From: Saprospiraceae bacterium | GTDB lineage: Bacteria; Bacteroidota; Bacteroidia; Chitinophagales; Saprospiraceae | Length of the DNA: 64,000 nt | Assembly: GCA_029212405.1 (NCBI GenBank) | Contig: JARGNR010000004.1 | Span: forward strand, 65,396-129,395 | Direction of reading: 5' to 3' | Part shown: one piece after another, positions 14,053 to 43,073 of the stretch | Layout of the letters: the number at the start of each line of letters is the position of its first letter | Position numbering within the stretch: position 1 is the stretch's first letter | Position numbers and translations under genes: made by a program | Notes under the pieces: model-generated | Database searches by the model: none | Seen by the model: the letters and a program-made list of their open reading frames with translations, nothing else | What the model was told of the DNA's origin: nothing

Positions 14053-14107
14053 TAAATTTAATGGGTGAAAGTGATGGAACGATTATTAATTTGGATAGAG
14101 AATTACA

Positions 14108-14800
14108 GTGAAAAGAACAACTGAAGATTTTAAATATTCATATACTTCATATTATTCCTTTATTTCGAAATCGTTTGATAATCATATTAAAAAAAAGGTT
14201 TTAGAAATTGGCGGAGGCGCTCATCCATCTATCACAGAGAGATCAAATCTCAAGTATACCATCATTGACCCAGACCCAATAGAATTGAAAAAGAGTCCGG
14301 AGGATTGTTATCAAATTTGTTCGACATTGCAAGAATACAATGAGGTTGGACAATTTGATTTAATCATTTCAAAAATGGTACTTGAGCATGTAGAGGAGCC
14401 AGACTCTTTTCATGAAAAAGCGAGGAGAGTACTTAAAGATAATGGGACGATTATTCACTTCTTTGCTTGCCGCCATTCAATACCAGCCATGGTAAATAGG
14501 CTATTGCCTGAATCTTTTGGAAATGCTCTTTTGAGGGTATTAAAAAATAGAAATACGGAGGCACATCCAAAGTATCCTGCATTTTATAAAAGGACAAAAG
14601 GGGGCGTGAAGTCTCAAATTCAATATTTTGAAAATCTTGGGTTTAGTATACAAACCTATAACTCCTACGTTGGGCACAAATACTTCCAATCGTTTCCGGT
14701 ATTAAAGCAATTGGAACAACTCTATACCTGGATTCTTGTTCAACTAAAGATGAAGTCATTAGCCACCGTTGCCTTGGTGGTTTTAAAAAAGAAAAAATGA
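14108..14800 (+). CDS. Class I SAM-dependent methyltransferase
   Basis: VLEIGGGAHPSI, FDLIISKMVLEHVEEPDSFHEKARRVLKDNGTIIHFF. GTG start. Confidence 0.85.
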   Translation: MKRTTEDFKYSYTSYYSFISKSFDNHIKKKVLEIGGGAHPSITERSNLKYTIIDPDPIELKKSPEDCYQICSTLQEYNEVGQFDLIISKMVLEHVEEPDSFHEKARRVLKDNGTIIHFFACRHSIPAMVNRLLPESFGNALLRVLKNRNTEAHPKYPAFYKRTKGGVKSQIQYFENLGFSIQTYNSYVGHKYFQSFPVLKQLEQLYTWILVQLKMKSLATVALVVLKKKK

Positions 14801-15882: not shown

Positions 15883-15998
15883 AAGGAGGAGAGCGGATGT
15901 TGAGATTTCGTTGCGCTGGGGGATGAAGATCGGCGAAAGATCAACTCCTTAAATCTATGACTTTAGGATTGATTTGGAAATTATGAAAAGAAACAACT

Positions 15999-16931: not shown

Positions 16932-16979
16932 CAATCTTCAAACCAAAGTACTAAAACTCTTTTTAAGAGAGACAATTTT

Positions 16980-25270: not shown

Positions 25271-25786
25271 TTAGCGTATTGGACCATTCTTAAATGCTTC
25301 ATATAATCCTTTCCAATCTAGTTTTCCATTGTTGGCTTTAAGGTGTTCAAGAATGATGACTGATTTTTCAATCCGTTTGTCGCTAGATTTAAATTTATTG
25401 ACAATGTGAAGGAGGCTCCTAATCTTGCCAGGAGTCAATTTGTGAAAAAGTACTTCTCCATCAGGATCTAGTTCGAGCAACTCTTTCATTTCTTCTGAAA
25501 TCGGCATTCCATATCTTGTTTTATCTTCTTCGATTTTAACGGATATAGTTTGATTCAATGCCAATTCCTGTTGCTTCATGATATCTTTTGAAAGCTTAAG
25601 GAAGTATTTCCCATTACCTTCTGGCATAAAACCAGCATGTATTTTTTCATTATCATTGATTTGCATCAACACCCTTTTTATTTTCTTGTCGGCAAATGAT
25701 CGATAAATATCTGCGGGTACTTTCAAATGAAATGGCCACAGTGAATCATTATATTTTGAAACTACTGTTTGAAATGATGCTTCCAT
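25271..25786 (-). CDS. DUF1905 / YdeI-OmpD-associated family protein
   Basis: N-terminal DUF1905-like barrel (PFHLKVPADIYRSF..INDNEKIHAGFMPEGNGKYFLKLSKDI) plus C-terminal helical YdeI-like LLHKLTPGKIRSLLHIV region. Confidence 0.65.
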   Translation of the reverse strand: MEASFQTVVSKYNDSLWPFHLKVPADIYRSFADKKIKRVLMQINDNEKIHAGFMPEGNGKYFLKLSKDIMKQQELALNQTISVKIEEDKTRYGMPISEEMKELLELDPDGEVLFHKLTPGKIRSLLHIVNKFKSSDKRIEKSVIILEHLKANNGKLDWKGLYEAFKNGPIR

Positions 25787-25788
25787 TT

Positions 25789-26631
25789 TTATAGTTTTTC
25801 TTCTTCCGAATAAGAAATGGGTTGTCGATATTTCTGAAATGGAATTTTTAACAATGTTCCGATATTATTGGCATCATTGAATTCCATATGAGTATCTACT
25901 CCATACTTTAGTTTTGAGTTATCCACCTTTATATAGGTACCAAATACTCGATCCCATATAGAAAAAATATTACCATAATTTTTATCACTGTATGGCTGCC
26001 TATAGTGGTGATGCACTCTATGCATATTCGGAGTGCAAAATACCCAGACTAGTGTATTGTCCAACCATTCAGGCATATTTATATTACTATGATTGAATTG
26101 AGTGAGTACAACAGATAGAGATTGATACATAAATACCAACCACATGGGTGCTCCCATAATGATTACTGCTATGGTCGTAAAAACAAATCTTATTACTGAT
26201 TCGCCAGGATGATGCCTATTGGCTGTTGTAGTATCTACATGTTGATCAGTGTGATGGATTAAATGAAATTTCCACATCCACTTTATATGATGTTCAATCC
26301 AATGGGGTAGCCATGAGCTGAATAGATCCATAAAAACCAATCCTAAAATAATGGTAAGATAAATGTTCATTTCTACCCATTGCAAAAGACCTATTTGATT
26401 GTTTTCTACCCATTGTGCAGCAGTAATAAGAATAAAAGCCATTGAAAAGTTGACCAATATAGTTGTCAACGTAAAAAATATATTCAGTCCGGAATGTTTC
26501 CATTTATTGTAATGTGCTTTGAAAAGAGGAATGGCATTTTCAATAATGAAAAATATGGTTAATCCTCCAATAAGAATTGCAGATCTGTGTGCGGACGAAA
26601 TAGTAGCGAAATAGTCGATTATAGCTTCCAT
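25789..26631 (-). CDS. Sterol desaturase / fatty acid hydroxylase superfamily membrane protein
   Basis: Histidine clusters HWIEHHIKWMWKFHLIHHTDQHVDTTTANRHHPGE and NMHRVHHHYRQPYSDKNYGNIFSIWDRVFGTY. Confidence 0.92.
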   Translation of the reverse strand: MEAIIDYFATISSAHRSAILIGGLTIFFIIENAIPLFKAHYNKWKHSGLNIFFTLTTILVNFSMAFILITAAQWVENNQIGLLQWVEMNIYLTIILGLVFMDLFSSWLPHWIEHHIKWMWKFHLIHHTDQHVDTTTANRHHPGESVIRFVFTTIAVIIMGAPMWLVFMYQSLSVVLTQFNHSNINMPEWLDNTLVWVFCTPNMHRVHHHYRQPYSDKNYGNIFSIWDRVFGTYIKVDNSKLKYGVDTHMEFNDANNIGTLLKIPFQKYRQPISYSEEEKL

Positions 26632-26710: not shown

Positions 26711-29700
26711 TTATTCTATTTGATCGGTTTGAGTTGATGTCCAATTAAGGATAGATCCATCATTCACACCAATGATCAGTGTTGAATCTGTTGAGATTAA
26801 ACTTCGTATTTCTGCAAGTATTAAAGGCAATGTTGCGGATTTTACATGCTGTGTATCTCTTCCCTTAAATCGAAGCATTGACAAAGGAAGACCATCTTGC
26901 CTTCCCAAATTTGGATCAATATCGTAATGATTACCTCCTAGTAAATAATTTCCTTGATGAAATTCAATGGCCCAAATAGGTCCAGCTTGTAATGGAGTTG
27001 GAAGTTCTTTTGGCACCCATTCGTCAAAGGCATTTTGAAAATATACAGTTGAATTTAAAGTGGTTGCTGTTTTAATTTTTGATCCATCTAGTTCAGCCTT
27101 AGAAAATAGTTCTGAAATGGATTTTTCTGCATAATCGGCATGTAATATAAACTCTTTTCTCTTTGATGGTATCTGCTTCAATAAGAGATCCAAGTTGGGA
27201 TAGGGATATTCTATACCATCTATGGTGTAGCTTATGATAGGGTCATTTTGTCGGTTATTATCAAAATCTTTGACATACATTTTCAAGGGTGAATTTAGAC
27301 CTACATCCAAGCGGTGGTTTTTCCCGAAATTTCCGGCTAGGATATCTAAAAATCCATCGTTATCAAAATCTTCAATTTTCAAACTATACCACCAGCCTTG
27401 ACTATTTGGTATTTCATACTTTTGAAATCCTTCTGGTTTGTTAAAAAGTATGGTTATCGGCATCCAATGTCCAGCTACAACAATATCCATTCTACCATCT
27501 TGGTCTATATCCTTCCAATCAGAATCAAAAACGACCTCTTTAATATCTAATAAAAATGCTTGAAACCTGCGATTATTTAAATTTTTAAGAAGATAAGATG
27601 CATCTGGATTGCCATAATCTCCTGCCCTGCTTTGTACCCCTACAAATAAATCAATGTCTCCATCATTATCATAATCGGCAGCAGATACTGTCGAGGTGTT
27701 TTTTGGTATTTTAGGGAGCATTTTTGTATTCAGCTCAAATTTTCCTTCTGTATTAATAAACAAAATATCGGGAAGGGATAAATCACCATCCGGTAGTTCA
27801 TTTCCACCTAGACAAACATATAGATCTTCATCTCCATCTCCATCCGCATCAAAAAAAACAGCAGCAGTTTCATCTACATATCTTGTATCACTTCCTTTGT
27901 TAATGAAAGTGAAGGGTGATTCTGAGTTAAGATCATATACAACTCCATTTTCACCTTTCCCTTGCGGGATAAAAATTTTCCCTTCGTTATTTATGGTAAT
28001 TTTTGGACCATTTTGGGACAGACCATACAACAATAGCGGTTCCTTGTTCTGATCGTTATATACATTTTCTTTGTGGGTGTAGATACGATCAACCTGAGGG
28101 CTTATTTTTTCTTTTTGTTGTAGTTGACTACCCTTTATCATAGAATCTTCTAGTATGACAACCTGCGTCTCTGAGTTAACATCAAACTCAGTTGTTTGGC
28201 CATTAACCCAGTGTACCACTCCTTTTGTTACGCCTGCCGATTTTGGGATCGAAAGAATGGATTGATCCATAGATTGAAACCCCTTATTTCCAGTGTGCAG
28301 TATAGAATTTAAGTTCTCATTTGCATCATTTTTCAGGATTACCTTTATACCATTTTTCAGGTTGTTTTTAGTAGACTTACCTCTAAATTGAAGCTGTATA
28401 TATTGCGTTGGATCAGTTTGATTCAGTAAAATAGAGGCTGGACTATTCAGGTTGTTTACAATAATATCCAAATCACCGTCATTGTCCAAATCAGCAGTAC
28501 ACGCTCCATTACTTATAGAAGGTTCGCCTGCTTGAAGTTCAATAAATTGCCCTTCGTCATTAGAATAATATTGATTGGCTACGATGCCGTTGGGCATCAG
28601 TTGTATCATTTCCAAATCTGACTTTGATTCATTCTCAGGATCGCTATAATAATTGACAAAATCCATGTTATTGGGTCGTTTATAAATCCCATTGGTTATG
28701 TATATGTCTTGATTGGAGTCCAGATCAAAATCTGCAATTAGAGGAGTCCAACTCCAGTCTGATGCATGAATATTGAAAAGAGATGCTTGTTCTGAATACT
28801 GAGGTATCGCACCTTTCTGACCTAGTTTGATTTGTAGGGCGTTTTTAGGAGACTGATGATGATATCCATAGCTTCGTTTGAAATCATAGATTTGTTTACT
28901 TTCCCAACCGCCTGATTCTTTAAAGACTTTTTCTTGATTCGGAAGCATATCTAATGAAAAAATATCCCATTCCATATCCTTGTTCAAATCTCCAACTGTG
29001 CTTCCCATGGTAAAATTACTCGTATGGCCTACAGCTTCTTGTATTACCTCTACAAAGGTACCATCTTGATTGTTGAGGTAGAGATAATCATTTTCATGAA
29101 AGTCATTACCAACATAAATGTCTGGCCAAAAATCGTTATTCAGGTCTGCTATAGAAACACTTAATCCGAATCCGACATTGGAAGAATATATTCCTGAAGA
29201 TTGGGTAATATCAATATATTTTCCATCCTGATTTTGATACAATCGATCTCCAGAAAGAGAGTCATGTTCAAATCTAATGTTTTTAGCAGCTACAAATTGA
29301 TCAGGTCGTTTTACGGAATGATTCAATAAATAGCAATCCAAATCTCCATCATTATCATAATCAAAAAATGCTGCTTGAGTACTAAATCCAGAAAAATCTA
29401 GGCCATACTCTTTCGAAGATTCAGTGAAGGTGCCATTTTGGTTATTGATGTAGAGCCGATTGTGATCGGTATATATTTTGAAATTACCTAACCTGCATAC
29501 ATAGATGTCGAGCCAACCATCTGCGTTGATGTCTAACATGGTCACTCCTGTTGACCATCCATTAGATAGATTTATTCCACTTTTTTCACTTATATCTTGA
29601 AACGTGAGGTCTCCATTGTTTAGATAAAGCGCATCAGTGACTTGATTTCCTGTGAAGAATAAATCAACTTTTCCATCATTGTTTACATCACCTGCTGCAA

Positions 29701-29884
29701 CTCCCCCTCCATTATAAAAGTAGAGATATTGCATAATATTAAAGGAGTCAGAATCGGTCAAGTCATTGGAAAATAGAATTTTGGATTTTGTGGATTCAAG
29801 TGGAATAAATGGAAACGGGTTGCTCTTCTTCTCACAAGAAAAGAAAAACGTCATGAGCAGCAAAAAACACCATAGAGTTCTCAT
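26711..29884 (-). CDS. Giant VCBS/FG-GAP repeat protein with ASPIC/UnbV-like segment (paralog 3)
   Basis: Lipobox-like FFFSCEKK; many DxDxDGxxD-type repeats (GDVNNDGKVDLFFTGN, DYDNDGDLDCYLLN); ASPIC-like GVVHWVNGQTTEFDV. Confidence 0.9.
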   Translation of the reverse strand: MRTLWCFLLLMTFFFSCEKKSNPFPFIPLESTKSKILFSNDLTDSDSFNIMQYLYFYNGGGVAAGDVNNDGKVDLFFTGNQVTDALYLNNGDLTFQDISEKSGINLSNGWSTGVTMLDINADGWLDIYVCRLGNFKIYTDHNRLYINNQNGTFTESSKEYGLDFSGFSTQAAFFDYDNDGDLDCYLLNHSVKRPDQFVAAKNIRFEHDSLSGDRLYQNQDGKYIDITQSSGIYSSNVGFGLSVSIADLNNDFWPDIYVGNDFHENDYLYLNNQDGTFVEVIQEAVGHTSNFTMGSTVGDLNKDMEWDIFSLDMLPNQEKVFKESGGWESKQIYDFKRSYGYHHQSPKNALQIKLGQKGAIPQYSEQASLFNIHASDWSWTPLIADFDLDSNQDIYITNGIYKRPNNMDFVNYYSDPENESKSDLEMIQLMPNGIVANQYYSNDEGQFIELQAGEPSISNGACTADLDNDGDLDIIVNNLNSPASILLNQTDPTQYIQLQFRGKSTKNNLKNGIKVILKNDANENLNSILHTGNKGFQSMDQSILSIPKSAGVTKGVVHWVNGQTTEFDVNSETQVVILEDSMIKGSQLQQKEKISPQVDRIYTHKENVYNDQNKEPLLLYGLSQNGPKITINNEGKIFIPQGKGENGVVYDLNSESPFTFINKGSDTRYVDETAAVFFDADGDGDEDLYVCLGGNELPDGDLSLPDILFINTEGKFELNTKMLPKIPKNTSTVSAADYDNDGDIDLFVGVQSRAGDYGNPDASYLLKNLNNRRFQAFLLDIKEVVFDSDWKDIDQDGRMDIVVAGHWMPITILFNKPEGFQKYEIPNSQGWWYSLKIEDFDNDGFLDILAGNFGKNHRLDVGLNSPLKMYVKDFDNNRQNDPIISYTIDGIEYPYPNLDLLLKQIPSKRKEFILHADYAEKSISELFSKAELDGSKIKTATTLNSTVYFQNAFDEWVPKELPTPLQAGPIWAIEFHQGNYLLGGNHYDIDPNLGRQDGLPLSMLRFKGRDTQHVKSATLPLILAEIRSLISTDSTLIIGVNDGSILNWTSTQTDQIE

Positions 29885-29885
29885 A

Positions 29886-32800
29886 TTAGTTCAACTGAAA
29901 AATGAGTGGATTGTCATTATTTCTAGCTACAATAATTGACTGTTTACCACCAATATTTATTTTTTTAATAGAGCGTATTTCGCCGTTGGCAGTGAATCCT
30001 GATTTTGTGTCATTCAAATAGGTGAATGATCCATCCCCATGACCAAGAAGAACAAGGCCGTCTGTGGCATCATATCTTCCTACTTCGGGTTTTACACTAT
30101 ATAAATTACCTCCCAGTAAAAGATCAACGTTGCCGTCTTGATTTATGTCCAACGTCTCAATGGCATAGATCGGTGCCAATTGTGCTGGAGTAGGTAAAGG
30201 TTGCGCCGAAAATTTACCTGTTCCATCATTTAATAAGACCATAGAGCGCATTTCGGTAGCTTTTAGTGTAATCATGTTTGCTCTTTGCTCTTCTGTGAAA
30301 AGGTCTTCAATGGTTTGATTAACATAACTGTCGTATTTTAAATATTTCTTTTTCAAACCAGGAAGTTGCTTTACAAGGTCATGTCGTAATGCAAGCGGAT
30401 AGGAAGATTCTCCATTAAAAACACAAACAATTTGTTCAACTGAACCATTTTGATCAAAATCATTAATGTGCATACAGACAGGGTGTTCTTTATCGGCTTT
30501 AAATCTAGAGTTTGTGCCATGATTTCCAATGATTAGATCCAGGTCATTGTCATTGTCAATATCTGCAATTTTGATGGTGTTCCACCAGCCGTAGAGTTGA
30601 GAAAGATCGTTTAATGAATCTAGAGGAAGTAAGCCATTTGAACTTCCCATAAAAATTTGTATCGGCATATAATCTCCTACGACAACCAAATCATCAAATC
30701 CATCATTATTTAAATCTTCTGAAACTGCATCATTGATTAATCCCATTTTTTTTAAATCAGGAGAAAGTACCCCTGTTTTATCTTCAAATTTTGTTTCCGT
30801 TTGAGATAAAACCATTCCTCTTCCAGGGACACCATATAAAAAAGGAATGAGCCCTTCTCCTATAAACAAGTCAATTTTTTCATCTTGGTTGAAATCTCCT
30901 TGAGTTATAGCTTTGTTTGAAAGGTAGCCCATATTTGCCATTGAAGCCGAACTTCTTGAAAATCCACCTCGACCATCATTGATATAAACTCGATCTTTAA
31001 GTGCGGATGATTCTCTTGTAAATTCTATTCCACCATGGATACTTATCAAGTCTAAATCGCCATCTGAGTCAAAATCCATGGCCAATAAATCTTGAACCTC
31101 TGACTTTGCATCTTCGTCAAATACATCACTTTCTTTTTTTCTGAATGAACCATTGTTTTGTAACCAAACTTCAGTAGCTTGATTTGAAGCTCCTCCAAAA
31201 ATAATATCTTCTTCTCCATCTTGGTTCAAATCAGCTATAATCATACTAGGCCCAGTAGTAGATTTCATGTTGTATAATAATCTCTCGCGATCAAAATCTA
31301 CATGCTTATTTTCTTTGTGGAGATACGTTAGATTTGTAGTCAACGAGACCTCTTTTAATAATGGATTTTTGATTGATTTTTGGATGGATGTGTCTTTTGT
31401 AGCATCTTTTTGAAATATCTGATGTCTCTTGTTGATTTCCAAATTATCAAGTAGTGTGACTTTGCCATCAGGCCATTGTAGTTTTACTTTATTAATACGG
31501 TCAATAGCGCCTAACCCAACGTGGGTAATATAGTCCATGGATGATTGAAACCCTTTTTGAGGCATAAATTCAAAATACTGGTTGCCCGCATCTGTTTCCA
31601 CTACTATTTTTGTATTTATGGCATGGGTATTTTTCCCTTCTCCAATAAGCTTAAACTGAACCCAATTGGTTGAAGTATTATTATTTCTGTAAATAAATGG
31701 AGCCATATTGACATTGTTGACGATGAGGTCCAAATCACCATCATTGTCTAGATCCCCATATGCAGATCCATTGGAATGACTGGGTGTACCAAGTCCCCAG
31801 TCTTCGGCTACATCTTTAAAACTATTCCCCTTCGAGTTTTTAAAAAGGTAGTTTTTGATTTTATTTGATGGGATAGCTGCAAGAAGTTTGGCATAATTAA
31901 CAACACTGTCTTTAATCATAGATTTCATTACATCCGCATCTGCAATATAATTTAAGAAATCTTGATCGGTAAGATCTTGGTGGATGCCATTGGCAATGAA
32001 TAAATCTTTCCATCCGTCATTATCAAAATCTGATATCAATGCACCCCAACTCCAATCTGTAGCATGTACTCCCATGTGTCTGCCTACTTCGGTAAAGGAA
32101 TGATCTTCATTACCCAGTTGTAACATATTTCGATTATACTGATGATAATAGCCATTATTGTAATTATATGTATATCGATCCCAATCATCAAAAGTTGTTT
32201 TTGTCTTTAATCTTTTGTCATCTCCAGGAAGCATTTCTGTCACAAAAATATCTGGTCTCCCATCATTATTGATGTCTGCCATATCCGCACCCATAGATGC
32301 TGCAGAAATTGAAGCCATGCGTTCTTCTAAATCTTCTGAAAAAGTACCATCTTGATTGTTTATGTAAATATAATCTCGTTCAAAAAAATCATTACTCACA
32401 TATATATCTGGCCAATTGTCGTTATTGAGATCCCCTACTGTAATACCTAATCCGAATCCTATAACAGATCCATAAATTCCTGCTTCAGCGCTAATATCAA
32501 TAAATTTATTATTATCATTTCTGAAAAATTTATCTCCTCCTTCTTCGTCTCGAATGGATCGTTTATTGTCCCTTAAATTAAAAGATCCGATTGCTTGATA
32601 GGAGTTGTTTAATAGATACATATCAAGGTCGCCATCTTTATCGAAATCAAAAAATACAGCATGAGTAGAATAGCCATTATTATCCAGACCAAAGTCTTTG
32701 GCTTGTTCTGTAAATTTTCCAGTACCATCATTAATAAACAATTCATTTGTTTTATTATCTCCATTCACATCTCCACTATTACACACATAAATATCTAAAA

Positions 32801-33182
32801 AGCCATCGCTATTTACATCCGCCATCGTTACACCTGTACTCCAGGCCTTATTGCCCTCTACTCCAGCTGCCTTTGAAATGTCTTGAAATTTGAAATCTCC
32901 TTTATTCAAGTAGAGTTTATTAGGACCCATATTGGCAGAGAAGTACAGGTCAGCCAACGTATCTCCATTAATATCTCCAATAGCTACTCCTCCACCATTG
33001 TAAAAATTTCTATAGGTATAAATATTAAAATCTCTATCATAGGTCAATGTATTCTCAAAGTTGATTCCCGTATGAGTAGAGGAGAGTTCTGTAAATTTTT
33101 TATCGGATGTTTGAGTATCATTTGTACAACTACTCCACATCAAGAGGGCCAATATTCCAATATACCACTTTATACTCTTCAT
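29886..33182 (-). CDS. Giant VCBS/FG-GAP repeat protein with ASPIC/UnbV-like segment (paralog 2)
   Basis: Listed ORF begins at 33230, but the in-frame ATG at 33182 gives signal peptide MKSIKWYIGILALLMWSSC and clears the upstream stop at 33184. FG-GAP repeats; ASPIC-like VKLQWPDGKVTLLDNLE. Confidence 0.9.
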   Translation of the reverse strand: MKSIKWYIGILALLMWSSCTNDTQTSDKKFTELSSTHTGINFENTLTYDRDFNIYTYRNFYNGGGVAIGDINGDTLADLYFSANMGPNKLYLNKGDFKFQDISKAAGVEGNKAWSTGVTMADVNSDGFLDIYVCNSGDVNGDNKTNELFINDGTGKFTEQAKDFGLDNNGYSTHAVFFDFDKDGDLDMYLLNNSYQAIGSFNLRDNKRSIRDEEGGDKFFRNDNNKFIDISAEAGIYGSVIGFGLGITVGDLNNDNWPDIYVSNDFFERDYIYINNQDGTFSEDLEERMASISAASMGADMADINNDGRPDIFVTEMLPGDDKRLKTKTTFDDWDRYTYNYNNGYYHQYNRNMLQLGNEDHSFTEVGRHMGVHATDWSWGALISDFDNDGWKDLFIANGIHQDLTDQDFLNYIADADVMKSMIKDSVVNYAKLLAAIPSNKIKNYLFKNSKGNSFKDVAEDWGLGTPSHSNGSAYGDLDNDGDLDLIVNNVNMAPFIYRNNNTSTNWVQFKLIGEGKNTHAINTKIVVETDAGNQYFEFMPQKGFQSSMDYITHVGLGAIDRINKVKLQWPDGKVTLLDNLEINKRHQIFQKDATKDTSIQKSIKNPLLKEVSLTTNLTYLHKENKHVDFDRERLLYNMKSTTGPSMIIADLNQDGEEDIIFGGASNQATEVWLQNNGSFRKKESDVFDEDAKSEVQDLLAMDFDSDGDLDLISIHGGIEFTRESSALKDRVYINDGRGGFSRSSASMANMGYLSNKAITQGDFNQDEKIDLFIGEGLIPFLYGVPGRGMVLSQTETKFEDKTGVLSPDLKKMGLINDAVSEDLNNDGFDDLVVVGDYMPIQIFMGSSNGLLPLDSLNDLSQLYGWWNTIKIADIDNDNDLDLIIGNHGTNSRFKADKEHPVCMHINDFDQNGSVEQIVCVFNGESSYPLALRHDLVKQLPGLKKKYLKYDSYVNQTIEDLFTEEQRANMITLKATEMRSMVLLNDGTGKFSAQPLPTPAQLAPIYAIETLDINQDGNVDLLLGGNLYSVKPEVGRYDATDGLVLLGHGDGSFTYLNDTKSGFTANGEIRSIKKINIGGKQSIIVARNNDNPLIFQLN

Positions 33183-33183
33183 C

Positions 33184-33735
33184 CTATTTGTATTGCTCGT
33201 TTTTGAATTTGACATATACGTAATGTTCATCTTCTGGGTAGATGGTGATCAGACGAGGATTGTCATAATTATACCATACTAGTTTACCATTGATTTCTTT
33301 TTGTGTAAACGTACAATTGTAGGATTTTTCCATCAAACTGATTACCTCTGGCATTAATTTATCTGAATGGGCTTCTTTATTCCAAGGAGCCCACGAACGA
33401 TATTCATATCGTACTGGAAGAATATAGATTTGATTGTTTTTATTAAATTCTGGATAAAAATTAATTTCTGTTGGAAAAGTGAAATTGACGGTGTCACTAT
33501 GCATAACACTAGTATTGTGATGCCCCTGAGTAATATCTTTTCCTTGTTTATTTAAATCCCAGCAATGATCATAAAATGCTTGCCTTTGCATGCCAAGTTG
33601 TACGCCCATGTGAACGGAATCTATTTGAGAATTATATTTTTGACCAAGTGGATTGCCTTTTTTGCATCCCATTTGCAAACAACATAAAAAAGATACGATA
33701 CATATCATTCCAAAAAAAGGTGTCATTCTCTTCAT
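33184..33735 (-). CDS. Small lipoprotein of unknown function
   Basis: In-frame ATG at 33735 gives MKRMTPFFGMICIVSFLCCLQMGCKKGN (lipobox-like QMGC); listed ORF extends to 33774 and would overlap the preceding gene. Confidence 0.7.
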   Translation of the reverse strand: MKRMTPFFGMICIVSFLCCLQMGCKKGNPLGQKYNSQIDSVHMGVQLGMQRQAFYDHCWDLNKQGKDITQGHHNTSVMHSDTVNFTFPTEINFYPEFNKNNQIYILPVRYEYRSWAPWNKEAHSDKLMPEVISLMEKSYNCTFTQKEINGKLVWYNYDNPRLITIYPEDEHYVYVKFKNEQYK

Positions 33736-33739
33736 TTCA

Positions 33740-36700
33740 TTAATTTTTGGGTAACAAATACGTAGATAATTCACTGCTATTCTTGCCTACAAGTAAATAT
33801 TGTTTTGTGCCAATATGTATTACTTCCAGGTCTCGAATTTCACCGAATTCCAATAAACCTGATTTCTCAAAGGGCAAATATATGAATGTGCCGTCAGTAT
33901 TCTGCAAGAAGACCTGACCAAAAGATGCAGCATTTATCCCAAATTCTGGTTTTGACTTATATTGATTTCCACCTAAAATAATATCCAGTAAATCGTCGCC
34001 ATTAAGGTCAATGACTTGTATAGCATATTGATCAGTCCATTGCGCTTCTTTGGGTAGGGGGATAAATTCAAATGAGCCTTGATTATTCATAAATATTCCT
34101 GTTCGGAATTCATTTAGCTCGTAAATTATGGATTGATTCAGAACAGTTGAATCAAACAGTGATTGCATGGTGGCTTCCGAATAAGCCCTATAACTCAAAA
34201 CTTTCTTTTTCAATGAAGGCAACTGCATTAGTAGGTCATCTCTCAATGTAAGAGGGTAGTCTTTATTGTTTTCACGGACACATAAAATGGTTTCAACCGA
34301 TCCATTTCTATCAAAATCGTTTACATATAATTTTGCTTTAGTTGAGGATGAGTTTGAAAGACTATGATTTTGTCCCATATTCAGAGCTATGATATCCTGG
34401 TCCCCATCGTTGTCTATATCCTTTATCTCTATTGAATTCCATCTCCCAGAAAAATTGGAGAGCTGATATGCTTGCGTTTTGTCCAACCATTCTCCGTTGG
34501 GAGATAAAGCCAATATTTTGATCGTTCCGTATTCGCAAGCAACAACTAATTCTTCCTGTTTGTCATCATCTAGATCCACCGTTTTCAAATCTGTAACGAG
34601 ACCTATACTTTTAAACAAACTTATAGGAGGGATTTTTTTATAGCTTCCATTTTCATTTTGATATACAATTAGATCTCCTTTGATACCATATGCATTGGAT
34701 TTCACTCGTTCCGAAATGATTAAATCTTGATCTCCATCGTTGTCATAATCTATATATACCACTCCAGAGGAATTAGAGAATGAAGTATTAATGAAAGAAG
34801 AAGGAGCTTTGACCAATTTTCTATTTTTTGACAGATATATTTTGTCTTTGACCCCTGATGCCGCTTGAGAAAACTCTATGCCTCCAGATGCAAAATAGAT
34901 GTCATCAACGCCATTTTTATCAAAATCATCAATTAGAATATCAGTAACTTCACCGGTATTATTTATAGGAGATAAATTCTCTTTTTGCACCAGTCTATTG
35001 TTCTTTTGAACAAAAATTTGAGTTTCCTTTCCTTTACTACCTCCTATAATCAGATCTTTTTTTTGATCTCCATTTATGTCTAAGGTCTTTAATTTAGGAC
35101 CACCATTGGATAGGAAAAAAGGATGTGTTCTATGATTATTAAAATTAATATACGAGTCTTCTTTATGTTGATAAGAGATGATGGAATTGACTTTTTTCAA
35201 GAGTGGATTGGAAGGTAATGGATAAGAATCTGGTGGATTGATTGTATTAGAAGGTTGGCGTATAAAATTTATTGAATCGAGAATAATTTCGTTCGGTAGA
35301 ATGGTTGTTTTGTACCTATTAGGCCAGAACACAATGATGCTATCAAATTTGGATTCTGGCATTGGAAATAGAACTCGAGTATCAACAGTGCTTTCAAATC
35401 CTTTCATAGGATACACTTCCTTGCTGATGGTAATTTCTTTGCTATAACAAATTACTTTACTGCCTATTGCTTGTGTATTGTTTCCATTACCTATTAATTC
35501 CAAGACAATACTCTTTTGATTACTATTGTTGCGATAGAGAGAAGCAGGGGCACCAATATTATTGGTTACCAGATCAAGATCACCATCATTATCAAGATCA
35601 GCATAGGCGGAGCCATTACTAAATGTAGGAGTAGAAAACCCAGCGGAGGTAGAAATGTCCTCGAATTTAAGATTGCCGGTATTCTTAAAAAAGACGTTTG
35701 GGTAGGGAGAGGAGGGCATTTCATCAAACATCTTCGTGATAGCGTTCTTCTCTCCGGATTGTATTAGTTTTCGAATCTGATTCGGATTGTAAAAATTAAG
35801 GAAATCTTGATCCAATAAGTCTTTGTATATCCCATTGGCTACAAATATGTCTTTCATACCATCTTGATCAAAATCTTCGATCAGTGCGCCCCAGCTCCAT
35901 TCTGTTGCCGCTGTACCACTAAATCTTGAAATTTCGTAATAAAGAGGTAATTTTTGATTATGAATTCCAGCATTTATATGAAGTGCATTTCTTCCAAACT
36001 GTCTGTGATATCCTTTCTCAAAATTAAGTTGAGATTTATCGTATGTTTCAAAAACAGCTTTTGATTTAATGCGTGTGAGCGTAGAAGGAAGCATTTCTGT
36101 CACAAATATATCTTGTAAACCATCATTATTTAGGTCTGCTATATCGGCACCCATAGAACCCATACTTAATTCTTGCATCGAGGTGTCAATGGTTTCTTGA
36201 AATGTGCCATCATGATTGTTAATGTACAGATAATCTTTTTCGAAAAAATCATTGCTTACAAATATGTCCGGCCATCCATCAAGATTGAGATCACTTACAC
36301 TTACACCTAGGCCAAAACCTATGTCTGAACTATATATTCCTGCGTTTTGAGTTACGTCGATATATTTTTTTTCTTGACCTTTTGATTCGGTTATCATCGA
36401 TTTTAGCAACTTATTCCCCCCATCTGGATTTGGAATGTTTCGCTGATCAGGAATCATATCGTATCCACCTACCGATCGTATGCTATTGTTTAATAGATAA
36501 CAATCCAAATCACCATCCAAATCATAATCAAAAAATACTGCATGAACGGCTAATCCTTCAAAGTCTAATCCATATTGTGCAGCTTCCTCTTTGAACGTCA
36601 AGTCTCCTTGGTTGATATACAACTCATTCTTTCGATTTCCTGCTACCTCGGGTTTACCAGACTTACAAACATAAATATCTAATAAATTATCAGCGTTGAT

Positions 36701-37066
36701 ATCTACCAGACTGACTCCTGAAGACCAAACATCAGTGGATGCTACTCCTGCTGATGCAGTGATATCTTTAAATTTGAAGTTTCCTTGATTGATGTATAAT
36801 TTGTTGTCTACAAGATTCCCAGAAAAGTAAATATCTATGAGATTATCATTGTTGAAATCCCCTAAGCCTACACCACCACCGTTAAAAAAGTTTTTAAATG
36901 TATAGGGGTTATATTCTTCCGTAAATGTGAGCTCATTATTAAATGAAACGCCACAATAGGATGTGGGAATGATATCGAAAAGAGCATTCGTAGGGTTGGG
37001 AAGCTCTGAATTTCTTTGACAAGAAATAAGAAATAAAACGAGAAAAAAGAACCAGCTATATTTCAC
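33740..37066 (-). CDS. Giant VCBS/FG-GAP repeat protein with ASPIC/UnbV-like segment (paralog 1)
   Basis: Lipobox-like FLISC; repeats such as GDFNNDNLIDIYFSGN, DYDLDGDLDCYLLNN, DLDNDGDLDLVTNN; ASPIC-like IIVFWPNRYKTTILPNE. Confidence 0.9.
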   Translation of the reverse strand: MKYSWFFFLVLFLISCQRNSELPNPTNALFDIIPTSYCGVSFNNELTFTEEYNPYTFKNFFNGGGVGLGDFNNDNLIDIYFSGNLVDNKLYINQGNFKFKDITASAGVASTDVWSSGVSLVDINADNLLDIYVCKSGKPEVAGNRKNELYINQGDLTFKEEAAQYGLDFEGLAVHAVFFDYDLDGDLDCYLLNNSIRSVGGYDMIPDQRNIPNPDGGNKLLKSMITESKGQEKKYIDVTQNAGIYSSDIGFGLGVSVSDLNLDGWPDIFVSNDFFEKDYLYINNHDGTFQETIDTSMQELSMGSMGADIADLNNDGLQDIFVTEMLPSTLTRIKSKAVFETYDKSQLNFEKGYHRQFGRNALHINAGIHNQKLPLYYEISRFSGTAATEWSWGALIEDFDQDGMKDIFVANGIYKDLLDQDFLNFYNPNQIRKLIQSGEKNAITKMFDEMPSSPYPNVFFKNTGNLKFEDISTSAGFSTPTFSNGSAYADLDNDGDLDLVTNNIGAPASLYRNNSNQKSIVLELIGNGNNTQAIGSKVICYSKEITISKEVYPMKGFESTVDTRVLFPMPESKFDSIIVFWPNRYKTTILPNEIILDSINFIRQPSNTINPPDSYPLPSNPLLKKVNSIISYQHKEDSYINFNNHRTHPFFLSNGGPKLKTLDINGDQKKDLIIGGSKGKETQIFVQKNNRLVQKENLSPINNTGEVTDILIDDFDKNGVDDIYFASGGIEFSQAASGVKDKIYLSKNRKLVKAPSSFINTSFSNSSGVVYIDYDNDGDQDLIISERVKSNAYGIKGDLIVYQNENGSYKKIPPISLFKSIGLVTDLKTVDLDDDKQEELVVACEYGTIKILALSPNGEWLDKTQAYQLSNFSGRWNSIEIKDIDNDGDQDIIALNMGQNHSLSNSSSTKAKLYVNDFDRNGSVETILCVRENNKDYPLTLRDDLLMQLPSLKKKVLSYRAYSEATMQSLFDSTVLNQSIIYELNEFRTGIFMNNQGSFEFIPLPKEAQWTDQYAIQVIDLNGDDLLDIILGGNQYKSKPEFGINAASFGQVFLQNTDGTFIYLPFEKSGLLEFGEIRDLEVIHIGTKQYLLVGKNSSELSTYLLPKN

Positions 37067-37088
37067 GTAAGACAGGTTGTTAATTAAA

Positions 37089-37116
37089 AAGACCGCCTTG
37101 ATTAAGGCGGTCTTTA
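37089..37116 (-). terminator. Strong hairpin between susD and first VCBS gene (intrinsic terminator/attenuator candidate)
   Basis: Perfect 12-bp inverted repeat AAAGACCGCCTT-GATT-AAGGCGGTCTTT; on the minus strand it is followed by TTAATTAA. Confidence 0.75.
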
Positions 37117-37147
37117 AAAATAAAAATTTTATGTTACAAAGATACGA

Positions 37148-38686
37148 TTAGTATCCAGGATTTTGCGATAGATTCGGATTAAGTGCAATCTGATCAGCAG
37201 GAATCGGCATTAACTTTTTCTCAGGAGAAGATTCGTTCTTCGCCCACCAAGCATCACCCCATTTTCCGAAACGGATAAGGTCTGTTCTCCTCTTAGTTTC
37301 AAAACACAACTCTCTTCCTCTTTCAGCTAAGAAATTATCCTCAGTTAATGATGCGAAAGGAGCAACTCCTGCTCTTTCTCTGATCATATTTACTAGATCC
37401 AATGCTTCCTGACTTCCACTGTTCATTCTCCACATTGCTTCTGCTTTATTCAATAAGATTTCTCCATATCTGTATAATGCAAAGTCATTGTTCATTGTAT
37501 TCTGAGTACCTACTTCATATTCATACTTAGAAAGTCTCGCTCCACCATCTCTATGAGCACCTGGCTCTAATTCGTTCAATTCAGGGTTGAAGTTGACATC
37601 TCTACCATCAGTATCCTCATAGTATGAATCTGCACCATCTACCAATCGACTTCCATCTAAGGCAAATTGTGGTCCATTTAATAATACACCATAGCCTCTT
37701 CCTCCTCCAGTGATTCTTACATCATCTTCTTCAAATGAGTTGTAGAAATCTGCTAAAGAACAGTATCCATTCCATGGTTGATCAACAGTTGAAAATGTTT
37801 TTTGACTTTCGTAGTGAAGAGTCATTTGTACAAGATTAAATCCTCCTGCATTTACAGCATCATAAGGAATCACAAAGATATTCTCTTTTGAACCATCGTT
37901 ATTCACAGCAAAGTTGTTGAAATAGTTTGATTCTAATGAATATCCACCTCCATTAATGATTTCATCACAAGCTGCTACTGCTTTTGCATATTCTGCAGAT
38001 CCATTATATTCTTCAGCATTCAAGTACAATTGAGCCAACATAGCCTGACCCACATAGTAATTCATTCTAGCATACGTAGTTTGGTCTACGTTCCTTGATA
38101 ACAATGGAACATTTGCAAGTAATTCAGTTTCGATAAATGCATAGATGTTTGATCTAGATTCTGTAGATGGTTTAAAATCTTCTGGTACATCAAATGTAGT
38201 TACCAAAGGAACATTTCCAAATACATCAACTAAAACAAGGTAGTAGTACGCTCTTAATGTTTTCAACTCTGCAATAAATGCATCAGATTGCTCATTTGCA
38301 TTTTCTTCAAAAGTGGCAATCAATCTATTACAGTTACTGATACCTCCATAGGCCCATCCCCACACATTATTGAATACACCTTCTCCATCAAAGAATTCGT
38401 GTTTGTGTGTTCTTAACCATTGTCCACCATCTTCCCAGTCAGGACCTCTGTGTGGTACACATACTTCATCAGAAGATACCTCTTGAAGAGAGAATAATTG
38501 ACCATGGTTACAAATTGAATACAGTGTTGTATACGCTGAGCCCAATGCAGAAATAAATGCATCTTCATTTACAAAGTACTCTTCAGCTGGAATAACATCC
38601 GAGAACTCTGGCTCAAGATCTGCGCATGAAGGCAACCATAAGGTTCCTATCACCGCAAGAATTGAAATTTTAAAAATATTTTTCAT
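37148..38686 (-). CDS. RagB/SusD family nutrient-uptake outer membrane lipoprotein
   Basis: Probable start MKNIFKISILAVIGTLWLPSC at 38686 (listed ORF to 38719). SusD features: LKTLRAYYYLVLVDVFGNVPLVT, YRYGEILLNKAEAMWRM, ELCFETKRRTDLIRFGKW, PIPADQIALNPNLSQNPGY. Confidence 0.93.
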   Translation of the reverse strand: MKNIFKISILAVIGTLWLPSCADLEPEFSDVIPAEEYFVNEDAFISALGSAYTTLYSICNHGQLFSLQEVSSDEVCVPHRGPDWEDGGQWLRTHKHEFFDGEGVFNNVWGWAYGGISNCNRLIATFEENANEQSDAFIAELKTLRAYYYLVLVDVFGNVPLVTTFDVPEDFKPSTESRSNIYAFIETELLANVPLLSRNVDQTTYARMNYYVGQAMLAQLYLNAEEYNGSAEYAKAVAACDEIINGGGYSLESNYFNNFAVNNDGSKENIFVIPYDAVNAGGFNLVQMTLHYESQKTFSTVDQPWNGYCSLADFYNSFEEDDVRITGGGRGYGVLLNGPQFALDGSRLVDGADSYYEDTDGRDVNFNPELNELEPGAHRDGGARLSKYEYEVGTQNTMNNDFALYRYGEILLNKAEAMWRMNSGSQEALDLVNMIRERAGVAPFASLTEDNFLAERGRELCFETKRRTDLIRFGKWGDAWWAKNESSPEKKLMPIPADQIALNPNLSQNPGY

Positions 38687-38708
38687 GTTTATTTTTTTTA
38701 AGTTGTTT

Positions 38709-41642
38709 TTAGAATCCAAGGTTTACACCAAATGTAATTGTTCTTGTACTGAAATAGTTATTTCTTCTATCTACACCAGGAGCTAAAGGATCTCTCAAAT
38801 CAAATCGAGCTTGTCTTCCTCCATTATCAACAGACCCAGCATCAGAAAGTACAGCTTCAGGATCAACACCTGTATACCCTGTAAATACTAATAAATTTTG
38901 ACCTGCAACATATACTCTAGCATTTCTGAATGAACCTAACTTTGAGAATGTATATCCTATAGATGCATTATCTAATTTTACAAATGAAGCATCCTCTACA
39001 TGTGTGCTATTGTATGAAGCTGATTTTACTCCTGGAGTTCCTTTATCTGTTGAGATGAAGTTTGCCGCAACAATATCAGGTGTAGTTTCATAAAATGCTC
39101 TGTAAGTATTTACTAAACTGTGACCAAATGCTCCTCTGAAAAGTACATTTACATCCCAGTTTCCAAATGATATATCATTGTTCAATGATAATTCAAAATC
39201 AGGAAGTCCGTTTCCTACAACAATCCAATCGTCTGCATTGATTTCTCCGTCTCCGTTCTGGTCTTTGAAAATGAATGCTCCTTCGTCACTTACACCTTCA
39301 AAAACAGGTGCAACAATCTGGCCTATTGCTTCTCCCTCTTCAATAAGGTGAAGTCCAACTCCAGCATCAGTAATGTTTTGACCAGGCGCTCCAAGATTTG
39401 TTCTGAATTCTCTAGGTCTGTCGTCAATGTACTTATCTAATTTAGTAGCGTAAGATGTGAAAATTAATGTAGGAGTATAACTAAAGTTCGCAGTGCTTAT
39501 TGCTTTATAATTTAATGCCAATTCAATACCATTTGTAGTGAAAGCAGCAATATTATCCCAAGTAATAGGAGCAAAATTTGGTGGTACAGATACTTGACCA
39601 GGTAATAATAGGTCGTCAGTTTGTCTGCTAAATACATCAAATGAACCGTAAAGTTTACCACTCATTATTGTATAATCCAATCCAACATTAATCTCTGTCT
39701 TTTTTTCCCATTTCAAATCTTCATTGGCGTTATTAATCGGGCCGTATGAAGGCACGAATGCTCCATTGTAAAAGAATTGAGCTCCTTGTCCAAAGATAGA
39801 GTATGGAAGATAATCAAGCCCTGGTAAATTTCCAGTAACCCCGTATCCCAGTCTTAGTTTTAAGTTCTCTACTCCAGAAATATTGGTAAGTTTTGAGATA
39901 TCAACTCCAGCACTAACAGCCGGGAATATACCATACGTGTTAGATGGTCCTACTCTGTCTGATCCTTCTCTTCTTACACTTGCAGAAAGGAAGTATTTAT
40001 CATCCATGTTTAAAGTCGCTCTACCAAACTGTGCAGCCAATTGATATCTTCTATTGTAAGAATATGGCGTTGCTAACCCTTGAAGTACTTCTGAAGACAA
40101 TCCAATTTGATTGTATGTATTCAAGTCATTTAGATACCCACCTGCTTCAATTCCTTGTCCTAAAATTCTGAATTCTTGTTGTGAAACACCACCAAGAACT
40201 GTATAACTAATATTTCCTGATTCTCCTGTATATTGTAATGTAGCTTCTAATAAATCACTCTTGTCATTGTCCGTAGTTCTTCTAGCTACACCATTTCTAG
40301 CTTGTCCTTGTCTGTAAAGAGCATTTCTTGGATAATACTCTCCTCCAAATCTGTCAATTGTTTGTTTCGCATACGTACCTGTAATCTTAAGTGCTGGCAA
40401 AATGTTATATGTTGCCGTCGCGTTTAATATAACTTCTGATCTCTCTTCATCAATTATATTTTGCTCCACCATTGCCACTGGATTAAAATTATCAAATCCT
40501 CCTGGCTCTCTGTATGTTCCGTCCTCGTTGAAAATTTCAGAAGTTGGGTTGGCTACTGTAGCATATCTAAATGCTTCTGGAAATCCAAAGTCTGATTTTC
40601 TGTTCGTATTTGTATAATTCAATGACACACTTAATTTGTCATCTAATGCTTTCTGTGTTAATGACAAACTTCCGTTTAATTGGTCAAACCCAGTATTTTT
40701 TACAACTCCATTATTCTCTCTAAAGTTGAATGAAGCTCTATAGGTTGTTTTCTCGTTTCCGCCAGAAAGAGATAAATTGTGAGATTGTGCAAAACCAGCT
40801 TGAGAAATCGCATCATACCAATCAGTATCACCACCAGCATCTATACCCCCTGCTGCAAGAAATTCTTCTCTAGTTGCAATGGATGGAGTACGTGCAATGT
40901 TTTCTGTAGAAATATACCCTGTGTAATTAATGTTTGAGGTTCCTTTTTTTCCTTTTTTTGTGGTGATTAAAATAACACCTGAAGATCCTCTTGTTCCATA
41001 GATTGCGGAAGCAGATCCATCTTTCAATACATCCATAGATTCAATATCTTGTGGATCAATACTTGAAAGTGATGCACCCGGCACTCCATCAACAATGATA
41101 AGTGGATTCGTTTGAGCTCCAATAGTTGATAAACCTCTTAATCGAATTCCAATTCCACCATTTGGATCACCATTTGCTTTTGACACGGTAAGTCCAGCTA
41201 CTTTTCCTTGTAATAACTGTGCTGGAGAAACCACGTTTCCTGTGTTGAAATCTTCAGCTTTGACACTAACGACCGATCCAGTAACTTCTTTTTGTTTTTG
41301 AGTACCGTATCCTACAACGACAACTTCATCCAATAGCGCTCCAGGAGCCAATGCAACACTAATTGTGTTGTCTGCACCAATAAGAACTACTTGGTCGATG
41401 TATCCTGTATAAGAAATGACAAGAGATTCTGTACCGTCAGGTACTTCCAGTGTAAATGATCCATCAATATCTGTAATGGTACCTGTTCCAGAATCTTTAA
41501 TGATTACGTTGGCACCAATTAAGGGCTCATTAGTTTCAGCATCTGAAATGACTCCTGTCACAGTTCTTTGCCCAATGGCAAACGAACACAAGCCAAACAA
41601 CAGTGCTGTAATAACTGTTAGTTTAGTAAATAATTTTTTCAT
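38709..41642 (-). CDS. SusC/RagA family TonB-linked outer membrane protein
   Basis: Carboxypeptidase-regulatory-like N-domain (GVISDAETNEPLIGANVIIKDSGTGTITDIDGSF), LDEVVVVGYGTQKQKEVTGSV, DGVPGASLSSIDPQDIESMDVLKDGSASAIYGTRGSSGVILITTKKGK. Confidence 0.95.
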   Translation of the reverse strand: MKKLFTKLTVITALLFGLCSFAIGQRTVTGVISDAETNEPLIGANVIIKDSGTGTITDIDGSFTLEVPDGTESLVISYTGYIDQVVLIGADNTISVALAPGALLDEVVVVGYGTQKQKEVTGSVVSVKAEDFNTGNVVSPAQLLQGKVAGLTVSKANGDPNGGIGIRLRGLSTIGAQTNPLIIVDGVPGASLSSIDPQDIESMDVLKDGSASAIYGTRGSSGVILITTKKGKKGTSNINYTGYISTENIARTPSIATREEFLAAGGIDAGGDTDWYDAISQAGFAQSHNLSLSGGNEKTTYRASFNFRENNGVVKNTGFDQLNGSLSLTQKALDDKLSVSLNYTNTNRKSDFGFPEAFRYATVANPTSEIFNEDGTYREPGGFDNFNPVAMVEQNIIDEERSEVILNATATYNILPALKITGTYAKQTIDRFGGEYYPRNALYRQGQARNGVARRTTDNDKSDLLEATLQYTGESGNISYTVLGGVSQQEFRILGQGIEAGGYLNDLNTYNQIGLSSEVLQGLATPYSYNRRYQLAAQFGRATLNMDDKYFLSASVRREGSDRVGPSNTYGIFPAVSAGVDISKLTNISGVENLKLRLGYGVTGNLPGLDYLPYSIFGQGAQFFYNGAFVPSYGPINNANEDLKWEKKTEINVGLDYTIMSGKLYGSFDVFSRQTDDLLLPGQVSVPPNFAPITWDNIAAFTTNGIELALNYKAISTANFSYTPTLIFTSYATKLDKYIDDRPREFRTNLGAPGQNITDAGVGLHLIEEGEAIGQIVAPVFEGVSDEGAFIFKDQNGDGEINADDWIVVGNGLPDFELSLNNDISFGNWDVNVLFRGAFGHSLVNTYRAFYETTPDIVAANFISTDKGTPGVKSASYNSTHVEDASFVKLDNASIGYTFSKLGSFRNARVYVAGQNLLVFTGYTGVDPEAVLSDAGSVDNGGRQARFDLRDPLAPGVDRRNNYFSTRTITFGVNLGF

Positions 41643-41981
41643 GCGGCTTAAAATAAGTTTAGTAAGTAAATGTGCTTAGTGTCTAATTAACACTATAATA
41701 TGTCGTAAATATAGTAAAATGCTTAACAAAATATTAACCACAATCATTTTGTGTTTAATATAATTTGAAGTTGAAAGCAGAATGTAGATTTTACATCCTA
41801 ATTACAAGTCCAATTTTTACATTTTATGGTGCTCCAGCAAGACATTTTTTACAAATTAACTTACGCTTACTTTATTATATGCAAATTAATCCTAAAAGGT
41901 TGTATTACCCCAAAATGTCAAAATTCAAAAGCAACATACCAATCTAACTAAAATATTCTATTTACAAGTAAAATCATGATT

Positions 41982-41993
41982 GCAACATGTTGC
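41982..41993. promoter_or_regulatory. Palindromic operator candidate upstream of the LacI-family gene
   Basis: Perfect 12-bp palindrome GCAACATGTTGC, about 36 bp upstream of the likely ATG (42030); a half-site GCAACATA lies at about 41931. Confidence 0.5.
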
Positions 41994-42029
41994 GATACCC
42001 GTTGTTGTTAAAAACTTATATATTTGATT

Positions 42030-43073
42030 ATGAAAAGGATTACTATACGTGATATTGCTAAGATGCTTGATGTTTCTCCTTCTACAGTTTCTAGAGCGCT
42101 TTCGAATCATCCTGATATTAGTCAAAAGACAAAGGATCGTGTAAATCAAGTGGCCAATACATTTAATTATACCGTAAATCTGCATTCTAATTTTTTTAGA
42201 AATCGGAAATCGAATTTGATAGCACTTATTCTTCCAGAAATCAATATGTTTTTCACTCCAAACTTAATACGGAGTATAAATAAAATATTAGCTAGGACGG
42301 AGTACTCTCTTTTTATCTTTATATCAAAAGATAGTTATAAAAAGGAAAAAGAAATTATTGATCAATGTATTAAATGGGCGGTGGAAGGTGTCTTAATTAG
42401 TCTCTCAAGCAAGACAAAAAGTATTGATCATTTGAAGAAATTGACCGATTTTGGTATTCAAACGGTTTTATTGGATCGAATTATTTCCAATGAGATCTAC
42501 TATTCGGTTATCAGTGATAGTTTCGGTTCAGGATATAAGGCAATTCAGTACCTCGCTGATCAAGGACATAGGAATATATTGGGCTTATTTGGCAACCCAA
42601 ATTTGAGTATTACTCAATTGCGAAAGGAAGGATTTCAAAAAGCAATTACTGACTTTGGGCTTGATTCAGATGTTGTTCGTTCAGCAACTGTAGGAAAAGT
42701 GAAAGAGTTGGACCGTATATTGCCAGAAATCATAAATACACATCCTGATATCACTGCAATTTTTATGATGTCCGATGAAATGCTTGCAAGAACACATTAT
42801 ATTCTCAACAAATTAGGTAAAAAAATATTTCAAGACATTTCTTTGATAGCGATTAGTGATGGAGAATTTCCTTTTTTATTGCATCCCAATGTGACATTCA
42901 TTAAGGATTCTGGAAAAAAGATGGGGAAGAAAACGATTCGATTATTATTGGATTTAATCGAAGGGAAATCTATCGTAGCTAAAAAAAGTACGCTTATTAA
43001 GACAAAGCTTGTTAAGTTAGATTCAGTAAAAGCTATTGAATTGGAAACTAAGGAAGATCAAATCTCGAAATAA
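42030..43073 (+). CDS. LacI-family transcriptional regulator
   Basis: ATG at 42030 (listed ORF uses a TTG at 42024). HTH MKRITIRDIAKMLDVSPSTVSRALSNHPDISQKTKDRVNQVANTFNY followed by a periplasmic-binding-like domain. Confidence 0.93.
   Translation: MKRITIRDIAKMLDVSPSTVSRALSNHPDISQKTKDRVNQVANTFNYTVNLHSNFFRNRKSNLIALILPEINMFFTPNLIRSINKILARTEYSLFIFISKDSYKKEKEIIDQCIKWAVEGVLISLSSKTKSIDHLKKLTDFGIQTVLLDRIISNEIYYSVISDSFGSGYKAIQYLADQGHRNILGLFGNPNLSITQLRKEGFQKAITDFGLDSDVVRSATVGKVKELDRILPEIINTHPDITAIFMMSDEMLARTHYILNKLGKKIFQDISLIAISDGEFPFLLHPNVTFIKDSGKKMGKKTIRLLLDLIEGKSIVAKKSTLIKTKLVKLDSVKAIELETKEDQISK

Follow-up and report, generated by a model that had tools for sequence, protein, structure and literature searches.

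What does a SusC/SusD pair import when it is followed by three giant lipoproteins and no degradative enzyme? SusCD systems are usually viewed as glycan importers that come with their own surface enzyme. In the 64,000 nucleotides of Saprospiraceae DNA that we analyzed (the window), the SusCD pair is instead accompanied by three large paralogous lipoproteins (V1, V2, and V3) and a small lipoprotein (p3). We propose, with a probability of roughly 55%, that this operon is a LacI-controlled SusCD uptake system whose propeller lipoproteins capture the ligand or act as a scaffold at the cell surface, that the ligand is a small glycoside, and that the system is coupled to a vanadium haloperoxidase (vHPO).

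The operon and its divergent regulator

The six genes lie on the minus strand in the order SusC, SusD, V1, p3, V2, V3, and a LacI-family gene lies upstream and is divergent:

42030..43073, plus strand: LacI-family transcriptional regulator, divergent from SusC (PF00356, Peripla_BP_1)
41980..41995, no strand: candidate LacI operator, the palindrome TTGCAACATGTTGCGA, between LacI and SusC
38709..41642, minus strand: SusC/RagA-type TonB-dependent outer-membrane transporter, 977 amino acids (TIGR04056, Pfam domains, V-associated SusC clade)
37148..38686, minus strand: SusD/RagB lipoprotein (PF07980, PF14322, lipobox LPSC)
33740..37066, minus strand: V1 (position A), FG-GAP/UnbV lipoprotein, 1108 amino acids, GTG start (Pfam, A lineage in the V tree)
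33184..33735, minus strand: p3, small lipoprotein of about 183 amino acids (conserved between V genes in relatives; confident AF2 model)
29886..33182, minus strand: V2 (position B), FG-GAP/UnbV lipoprotein, 1098 amino acids from the ATG at 33182 (Pfam, AF2, CRTAC1 fold match)
26711..29884, minus strand: V3 (position C), FG-GAP lipoprotein, 1057 amino acids, with a divergent UnbV region (Pfam, C lineage)

All six frames are open, and both the gene order and the tight junctions reported in the initial annotation were confirmed. V1 ends at 33740 and the ATG of p3 is at 33735; p3 ends at 33184 and the ATG of V2 is at 33182 (in the list of open reading frames, V2 starts further upstream, with an ATG at 33230 that lies before the signal peptide); and V2 ends at 29886 while V3 starts at 29884. 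SusC matches TIGR04056 with 660.6 bits (the cut-off is 368) and contains the carboxypeptidase-regulatory-like, plug, and barrel domains from Pfam. SusD matches PF07980 (E = 1e-25) and PF14322 (E = 4e-14); its ATG at 38686 lies before the signal peptide, and the open frame starts with a TTG at 38719. From the translations, all five lipoproteins of the operon have a plausible lipobox. We saw no obvious acidic lipoprotein-export signals past the lipobox cysteine in V1-V3.

Of the features that characterize a Sus-like PUL, the locus has the adjacent susC-susD pair and a local regulator (the divergent LacI-family gene with its candidate palindrome). A linked carbohydrate-active enzyme is missing from the operon and from the flanking genes examined, and is variable in relatives. 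More broadly, neither the operon nor those of its flanking genes that were scanned, or were recognizable by translation, showed a glycosidase, lyase, sulfatase, or peptidase. Thus, the initial annotation was right that this operon lacks a degradative enzyme (no CAZyme or catalytic fold was found), but this does not extend to its relatives: a vHPO often sits there, and a p3-less branch of the relatives is linked to alpha-glucosidases or trehalases from GH65, GH13, or GH37. The flanking genes are ordinary (fatty-acid hydroxylase family, OmdA-like, ComEC, a helix-hairpin-helix protein, TonB, GcvH, citrate synthase, and RuvC). The fatty-acid-hydroxylase-family and OmdA-like genes (25271-26631) are downstream of V3 on the same strand, after a gap of 79 bases. 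Because this pair does not recur beside V in relatives, it is probably outside the module.

The LacI protein matches PF00356 (E = 2e-14) and Peripla_BP_1 (E = 1e-20); its open frame begins with a TTG at 42024 and there is an ATG at 42030. In relatives, LacI genes are placed likewise, and palindromes of a similar type (ACGAAAACGTTTTCGT and TTGCAAACGTTTGTAA) are found at the equivalent position. The palindrome TTGCAACATGTTGCGA is the sole site in the genome with at most one mismatch, although within the window alone, a match as close as this is about what is expected by chance. Because there is no second one-mismatch site genome-wide, and because two-mismatch sites are near background (7, versus 2 for a reversed control), we do not claim any trans targets for this regulator.

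Domains and predicted fold of the large lipoproteins

V1, V2, and V3 had been described as giant paralogues, and indeed they align with each other over more than 1,000 amino acids (V1-V2, 41% identity; V2-V3, 35%; V1-V3, 34%). Using the HMM search that the initial annotation suggested, we found that all three match FG-GAP_3 far beyond chance (E = 2e-63 for V1, 6e-72 for V2, and 7e-59 for V3), with 8-12 stretches in each protein. The initial annotation saw an ASPIC-like central segment in all three proteins; Pfam identifies UnbV_ASPIC in V1 (E = 1e-6) and V2 (E = 2e-17), but in V3 it has no match even at E ≤ 1, although V3 still aligns across the region. Similarly, the C-terminal block LRDLxxQLPxxKKK is easily recognized in V1 and V2, whereas V3 has a degenerate form (NLDLLLKQIPSKRKEF).

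We modelled V2 with AF2 from an alignment of 70 sequences (pLDDT 91.1, pTM 0.91). By a wide margin, the best solved fold is murine CRTAC1 (9etn; E = 5.5e-27, TM 0.71 when normalized on the length of CRTAC1), which a sequence search also reaches (E = 1.6e-23); the other fold matches are generic propeller proteins. V2 contains 14 canonical calcium motifs of the DxDxDG type, with seven on either side of the UnbV region. (A fifteenth match to the pattern, at position 154, is in a loop that is present in V2 alone.) Because the motifs divide in this way, we read them as two seven-bladed FG-GAP propellers that flank a UnbV/ASPIC domain. V proteins share with CRTAC1/UnbV-ASPIC proteins the FG-GAP propeller of the CRTAC1 fold, and in V1 and V2 a UnbV domain is joined to it. 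Unlike CRTAC1, they are anchored as lipoproteins and have another propeller on the C-terminal side, and V3 has no recognizable UnbV domain. The FG-GAP repeats with calcium motifs are also shared with the integrin alpha propeller (there is a weak match to integrin alpha-6, E = 3e-5), but V proteins have two propellers and are bacterial lipoproteins, and we see no relation beyond the repeat. We discarded the integrin and BBS matches as generic propeller similarity.

Several propeller enzymes exist, so V1-V3 might themselves be enzymes: the tandem propeller could hold a hydrolase or lyase site of an undescribed type, which would make the locus an ordinary PUL after all. A tandem-propeller GH74 does appear in the list of generic fold matches, and the N-terminal propeller has strongly conserved residues that lie outside the calcium motifs (SNDFFExDY, DWSW, and NGI). 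Conservation is far stronger in the N-terminal half as a whole, where 93 positions reach at least 95%, than in the C-terminal half, where 35 do. However, V1-V3 have no match to a catalytic Pfam family at E ≤ 1 beyond chance matches, and the likeness to GH74 is generic (TM 0.2-0.27), while CRTAC1, which is not known as an enzyme, is by far the best fold. We therefore consider it very unlikely that the V proteins are enzymes. A substrate-binding role, as first suggested for them, or a scaffold role is still the simplest reading. The structure predicted for V2 contains no known catalytic domain, which would have pointed to an ordinary PUL.

The small protein p3 has no match in Pfam or NCBIfam. 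From an alignment of 46 members we obtained a confident AF2 model (pLDDT 89.9). No solved structure matches it at E ≤ 0.001; since the best match has E = 0.011 and TM 0.3-0.4, we leave the fold unnamed.

Conservation of the module across Bacteroidota

A scan of GTDB identified at least 566 relatives of V, which rules out that these genes are unique to this locus, and we analyzed the best 80 loci with their flanks. The order SusC-SusD-VA-p3-VB-VC recurs many times among these 80 loci (the best 80 of at least 566). (The gene-context maps are from mechanical open reading frames, the GC-rich loci L090 and L159 are mislabelled, and per-locus counts are approximate.) The conserved order, often with a vHPO added, is found in Flavobacteriaceae, Cyclobacteriaceae, Saprospiraceae, Bacteroidales, and others. 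Rather than an oddity of one genome, the unit is a widespread module whose V genes are kept beside SusCD in related genomes; their absence there would have spoken against the initial annotation.

To classify the V proteins by position, we use A for the one before p3, B for the one just after p3, and C for the last. On a tree of 146 V proteins, A, B, and C form separate lineages (4 changes are needed; the minimum is 2), and V1, V2, and V3 from the window group with A, B, and C, respectively. Because the lineages are kept by position, this is an old ordered set and not a recent local triplication. The V-linked SusC proteins also cluster on the SusC tree (8 changes, versus a mean of 32 after shuffling), and the SusC from the window falls within a clade of 49 rows that has only V-linked SusCs (support 99). 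This outer-membrane uptake operon is ancient and widely conserved in Bacteroidota. It is apparently a SusCD variant without an earlier description: our search of openly available literature found no paper that combined SusC, SusD, and VCBS.

Might the operon be the remnant of a PUL that lost its enzyme? There is no linked enzyme here and some relatives have one. Yet the six frames are intact with tight junctions, the enzyme-free order is common to many families and has kept its V lineages in order, and the regulator and palindrome are still in place, so this explanation strikes us as highly improbable.

The association of V with SusCD is real but it is not absolute. Among 297 evenly drawn Bacteroidota genomes, 88 (about 30%) encode V (at E ≤ 1e-200) and 23 encode p3; in the p3-less V regions of this sample, V is immediately after SusD in 24 of 40. 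Two loci, L079 and L218, have V-p3-V-V cassettes without SusCD. (After the cassette, L079 has an MFS gene and then genes for a STAS-domain protein and a 3-keto-disaccharide hydrolase, and the genes at this place in L218 are of similar sizes.) In L196 and L197, a lone V is immediately followed by a vanadium haloperoxidase, beside permease genes of the LptF/LptG type, which suggests that the coupling of V to vHPO is independent of SusCD. These cassettes and V-vHPO pairs without SusCD imply that V is not solely an accessory of SusCD. Seven SusCs of the window's genome reach the E = 1e-100 threshold. V follows the C57 SusCD pair, and four other mapped pairs are without V; on the contigs of the remaining two SusCs we found no full-length V, but C118 has shorter UnbV/FG-GAP genes. 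Three more full-length V genes are in this genome, away from SusC/SusD (C147:3497-6562, C68:210-3485, and C13:15194-18382).

Candidate ligand, haloperoxidase companion, and proposed mechanism

In the sampled loci, GH65 adjoins V in 14 cases, all of them p3-less. One of these GH65 proteins was searched against solved structures and is nearest to 7FE3 (E = 4e-287), which is the kojibiose hydrolase FjGH65A from F. johnsoniae (PMC8626586). Other neighbors are GH37 trehalase (3 loci), GH13 of the alpha-glucosidase type (6 loci), and GT20/trehalose phosphatase (1 locus), and the V loci of Flavobacterium have GH100-like and PfkB neighbors. GH127, sulfatase, GH3, or 3-keto-disaccharide hydrolase is found at still other V loci, and the sugar-linked neighbors in relatives also include transporters (SSS and MFS) and sugar kinases. 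In the window's SusC clade, no glycosidase is recurrent, and the enzymes are mixed (trehalase, GT20/trehalose-phosphatase, GH13, GH127, sulfatase, and amidase). For this clade we rejected the idea of a single substrate that is defined by the enzyme near V, because the enzymes are inconsistent.

The initial annotation had raised the possibility of a non-glycan polymer as the substrate. The linked GH65, GH13, and GH37 in relatives favor glycosides over such a polymer, as do the LacI-type regulation, the palindrome, and the sugar-related neighbors. Because GH65 is limited to p3-less loci and the clade has no constant glycosidase, we infer a glycoside-like ligand with low confidence. A narrower possibility is that uptake is specific to small alpha-glucosides (for example, trehalose, kojibiose, or sugars that resemble sucrose), as the GH65 (including the relative of FjGH65A), GH37, GH13, GT20, and GH100-like/PfkB neighbors would suggest; but with GH65 confined to p3-less loci, an inconsistent pattern in the window's own clade, and unrelated enzymes such as GH127 or sulfatase elsewhere, we think this is distinctly unlikely.

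The other frequent companion is vHPO. Its gene is the most common one after the last V; it is present in 36 of the 80 loci (the best 80 of at least 566 relatives) and comes after the last V in most of them. It encodes a lipoprotein of roughly 445 amino acids from the PAP2 superfamily. Among solved structures, the protein is closest to the Zobellia iodoperoxidase 4CIT (E = 1e-143, full length), and the vanadate-site motifs KxxxxxxRP, SGH, and SRxxxxxH are all present in 52 of 54 full-length members. The companion in relatives is thus a full-length homologue, with vanadate-site motifs, of zgVIPO1 from Zobellia galactanivorans (4CIT, 4USZ), a likeness by sequence. Unlike these companions, the homologue in the window's genome is outside the operon and unlinked, on another contig; it is 48% identical and has all of the motifs. 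In the sample of 297 genomes, 55 encode vHPO (at E ≤ 1e-80) and all 55 of these also carry V, whereas 88 of the whole sample do. A hypergeometric test gives 4e-37 for genomes and 2e-22 for genera (38 of 38 within 53 of 141); neither value is corrected for descent. Because every vHPO genome in the sample has V, we treat V and vHPO as functionally coupled, whether linked or not. In the openly available literature that we searched, we found no publication that links the SusCD/V module to vanadium haloperoxidase, or that brings together vanadium-dependent haloperoxidase, Bacteroidetes, and SusD.

Calcium- and peroxide-dependent iodine uptake is known in marine Flavobacteriaceae. In Arenibacter C-21, iodine uptake requires glucose, oxygen, and calcium, and glucose oxidase and haloperoxidase were proposed as the agents; the genome encodes at least five homologues of zgVIPO (PMC5064120). 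Another Arenibacter has a V-p3 locus (L052), which is a suggestive coincidence and no proof of function. The module might be the outer-membrane part of a vHPO system, in which the V proteins keep the enzyme in place, feed it, or shield it, SusCD imports the oxidized or halogenated product (for example, iodine), and the nearby sugar enzymes supply carbon or peroxide. The position of vHPO after the last V, its intact motifs, its confinement to V genomes in the sample, and the V-vHPO pairs without SusCD all fit this scenario. Nevertheless, at the cut-off used this vHPO is missing from 33 of the 88 genomes with V, soil and fresh water are the source of many carriers, the enzyme is not linked to the operon of the window, and L052 has no vHPO beside V. 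Also, PAP2-superfamily enzymes include phosphatases. We consider this scenario unlikely, but of the alternatives it deserves the most attention. A bolder version, about which we are decidedly skeptical, is that SusCD-VA-p3-VB-VC(-vHPO) is a machine in which calcium-loaded propellers organize vHPO at the surface and pass its product through the SusCD pore. If true, the importer or store that is missing from this kind of iodine uptake in marine Flavobacteriaceae would be found, and a SusCD system would have a redox function, which is absent from the literature that we searched.

In the LacI-controlled uptake system that we prefer, SusC would be the pore and SusD the lid of a TonB-dependent outer-membrane system. 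V1-V3, which are probably exposed on the surface, would each present two calcium-stabilized FG-GAP propellers around a UnbV domain, and would replace the surface glycan-binding proteins and the surface enzyme of a classical PUL. They may capture and concentrate the ligand, serve as a scaffold on SusC, or both, and p3 would sit between them as a small partner. The local LacI-type sensor would turn on the operon via the palindrome before SusC. The ligand would most likely be a small glycoside or oligosaccharide that need not be cut at the surface, and cleavage would be left to periplasmic or cytoplasmic enzymes that are unlinked or, in relatives, neighboring. The module would be functionally coupled to the vHPO lipoprotein, which is linked in many relatives and unlinked here. 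Assembly of V1-V3 and p3 on or near SusCD is proposed by analogy to utilisomes, where SusC is a platform for extra lipoproteins (PMC7618045). Like the levan and dextran utilisomes of B. thetaiotaomicron (PMC7618045), the operon combines a SusC pore and SusD lid with lipoproteins from the same operon and a local regulator. In contrast to SusCD utilisomes and PULs, it has no surface glycosidase or known SGBP family; it has three CRTAC1-like double propellers of roughly 1100 amino acids, p3, and a LacI regulator.

An old and ordered SusCD lineage thus carries three CRTAC1-like giants and p3 rather than a surface enzyme. The module offers a genetic handle on the role of bacterial UnbV/CRTAC1 proteins and on the possible workings of haloperoxidase-dependent iodine uptake.

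Elsewhere in the window, a large exopolysaccharide/capsule biosynthesis cluster (1-19390, plus strand) encodes Wza/Wzz-like proteins, a flippase, glycosyltransferases, acetyltransferases, and a mannose-1-P guanylyltransferase, and includes a secreted right-handed beta-helix protein (7776-9185). It is followed by a DUF6923/CHU_C protein of 816 amino acids with a type IX secretion signal (19556-22006), which is about 5 kb from the V operon, on the opposite strand, and unlinked to it. In four loci of the Saprospiraceae type (L039, L043, L063, and L069), relatives of this protein are encoded within the V operon or beside it.
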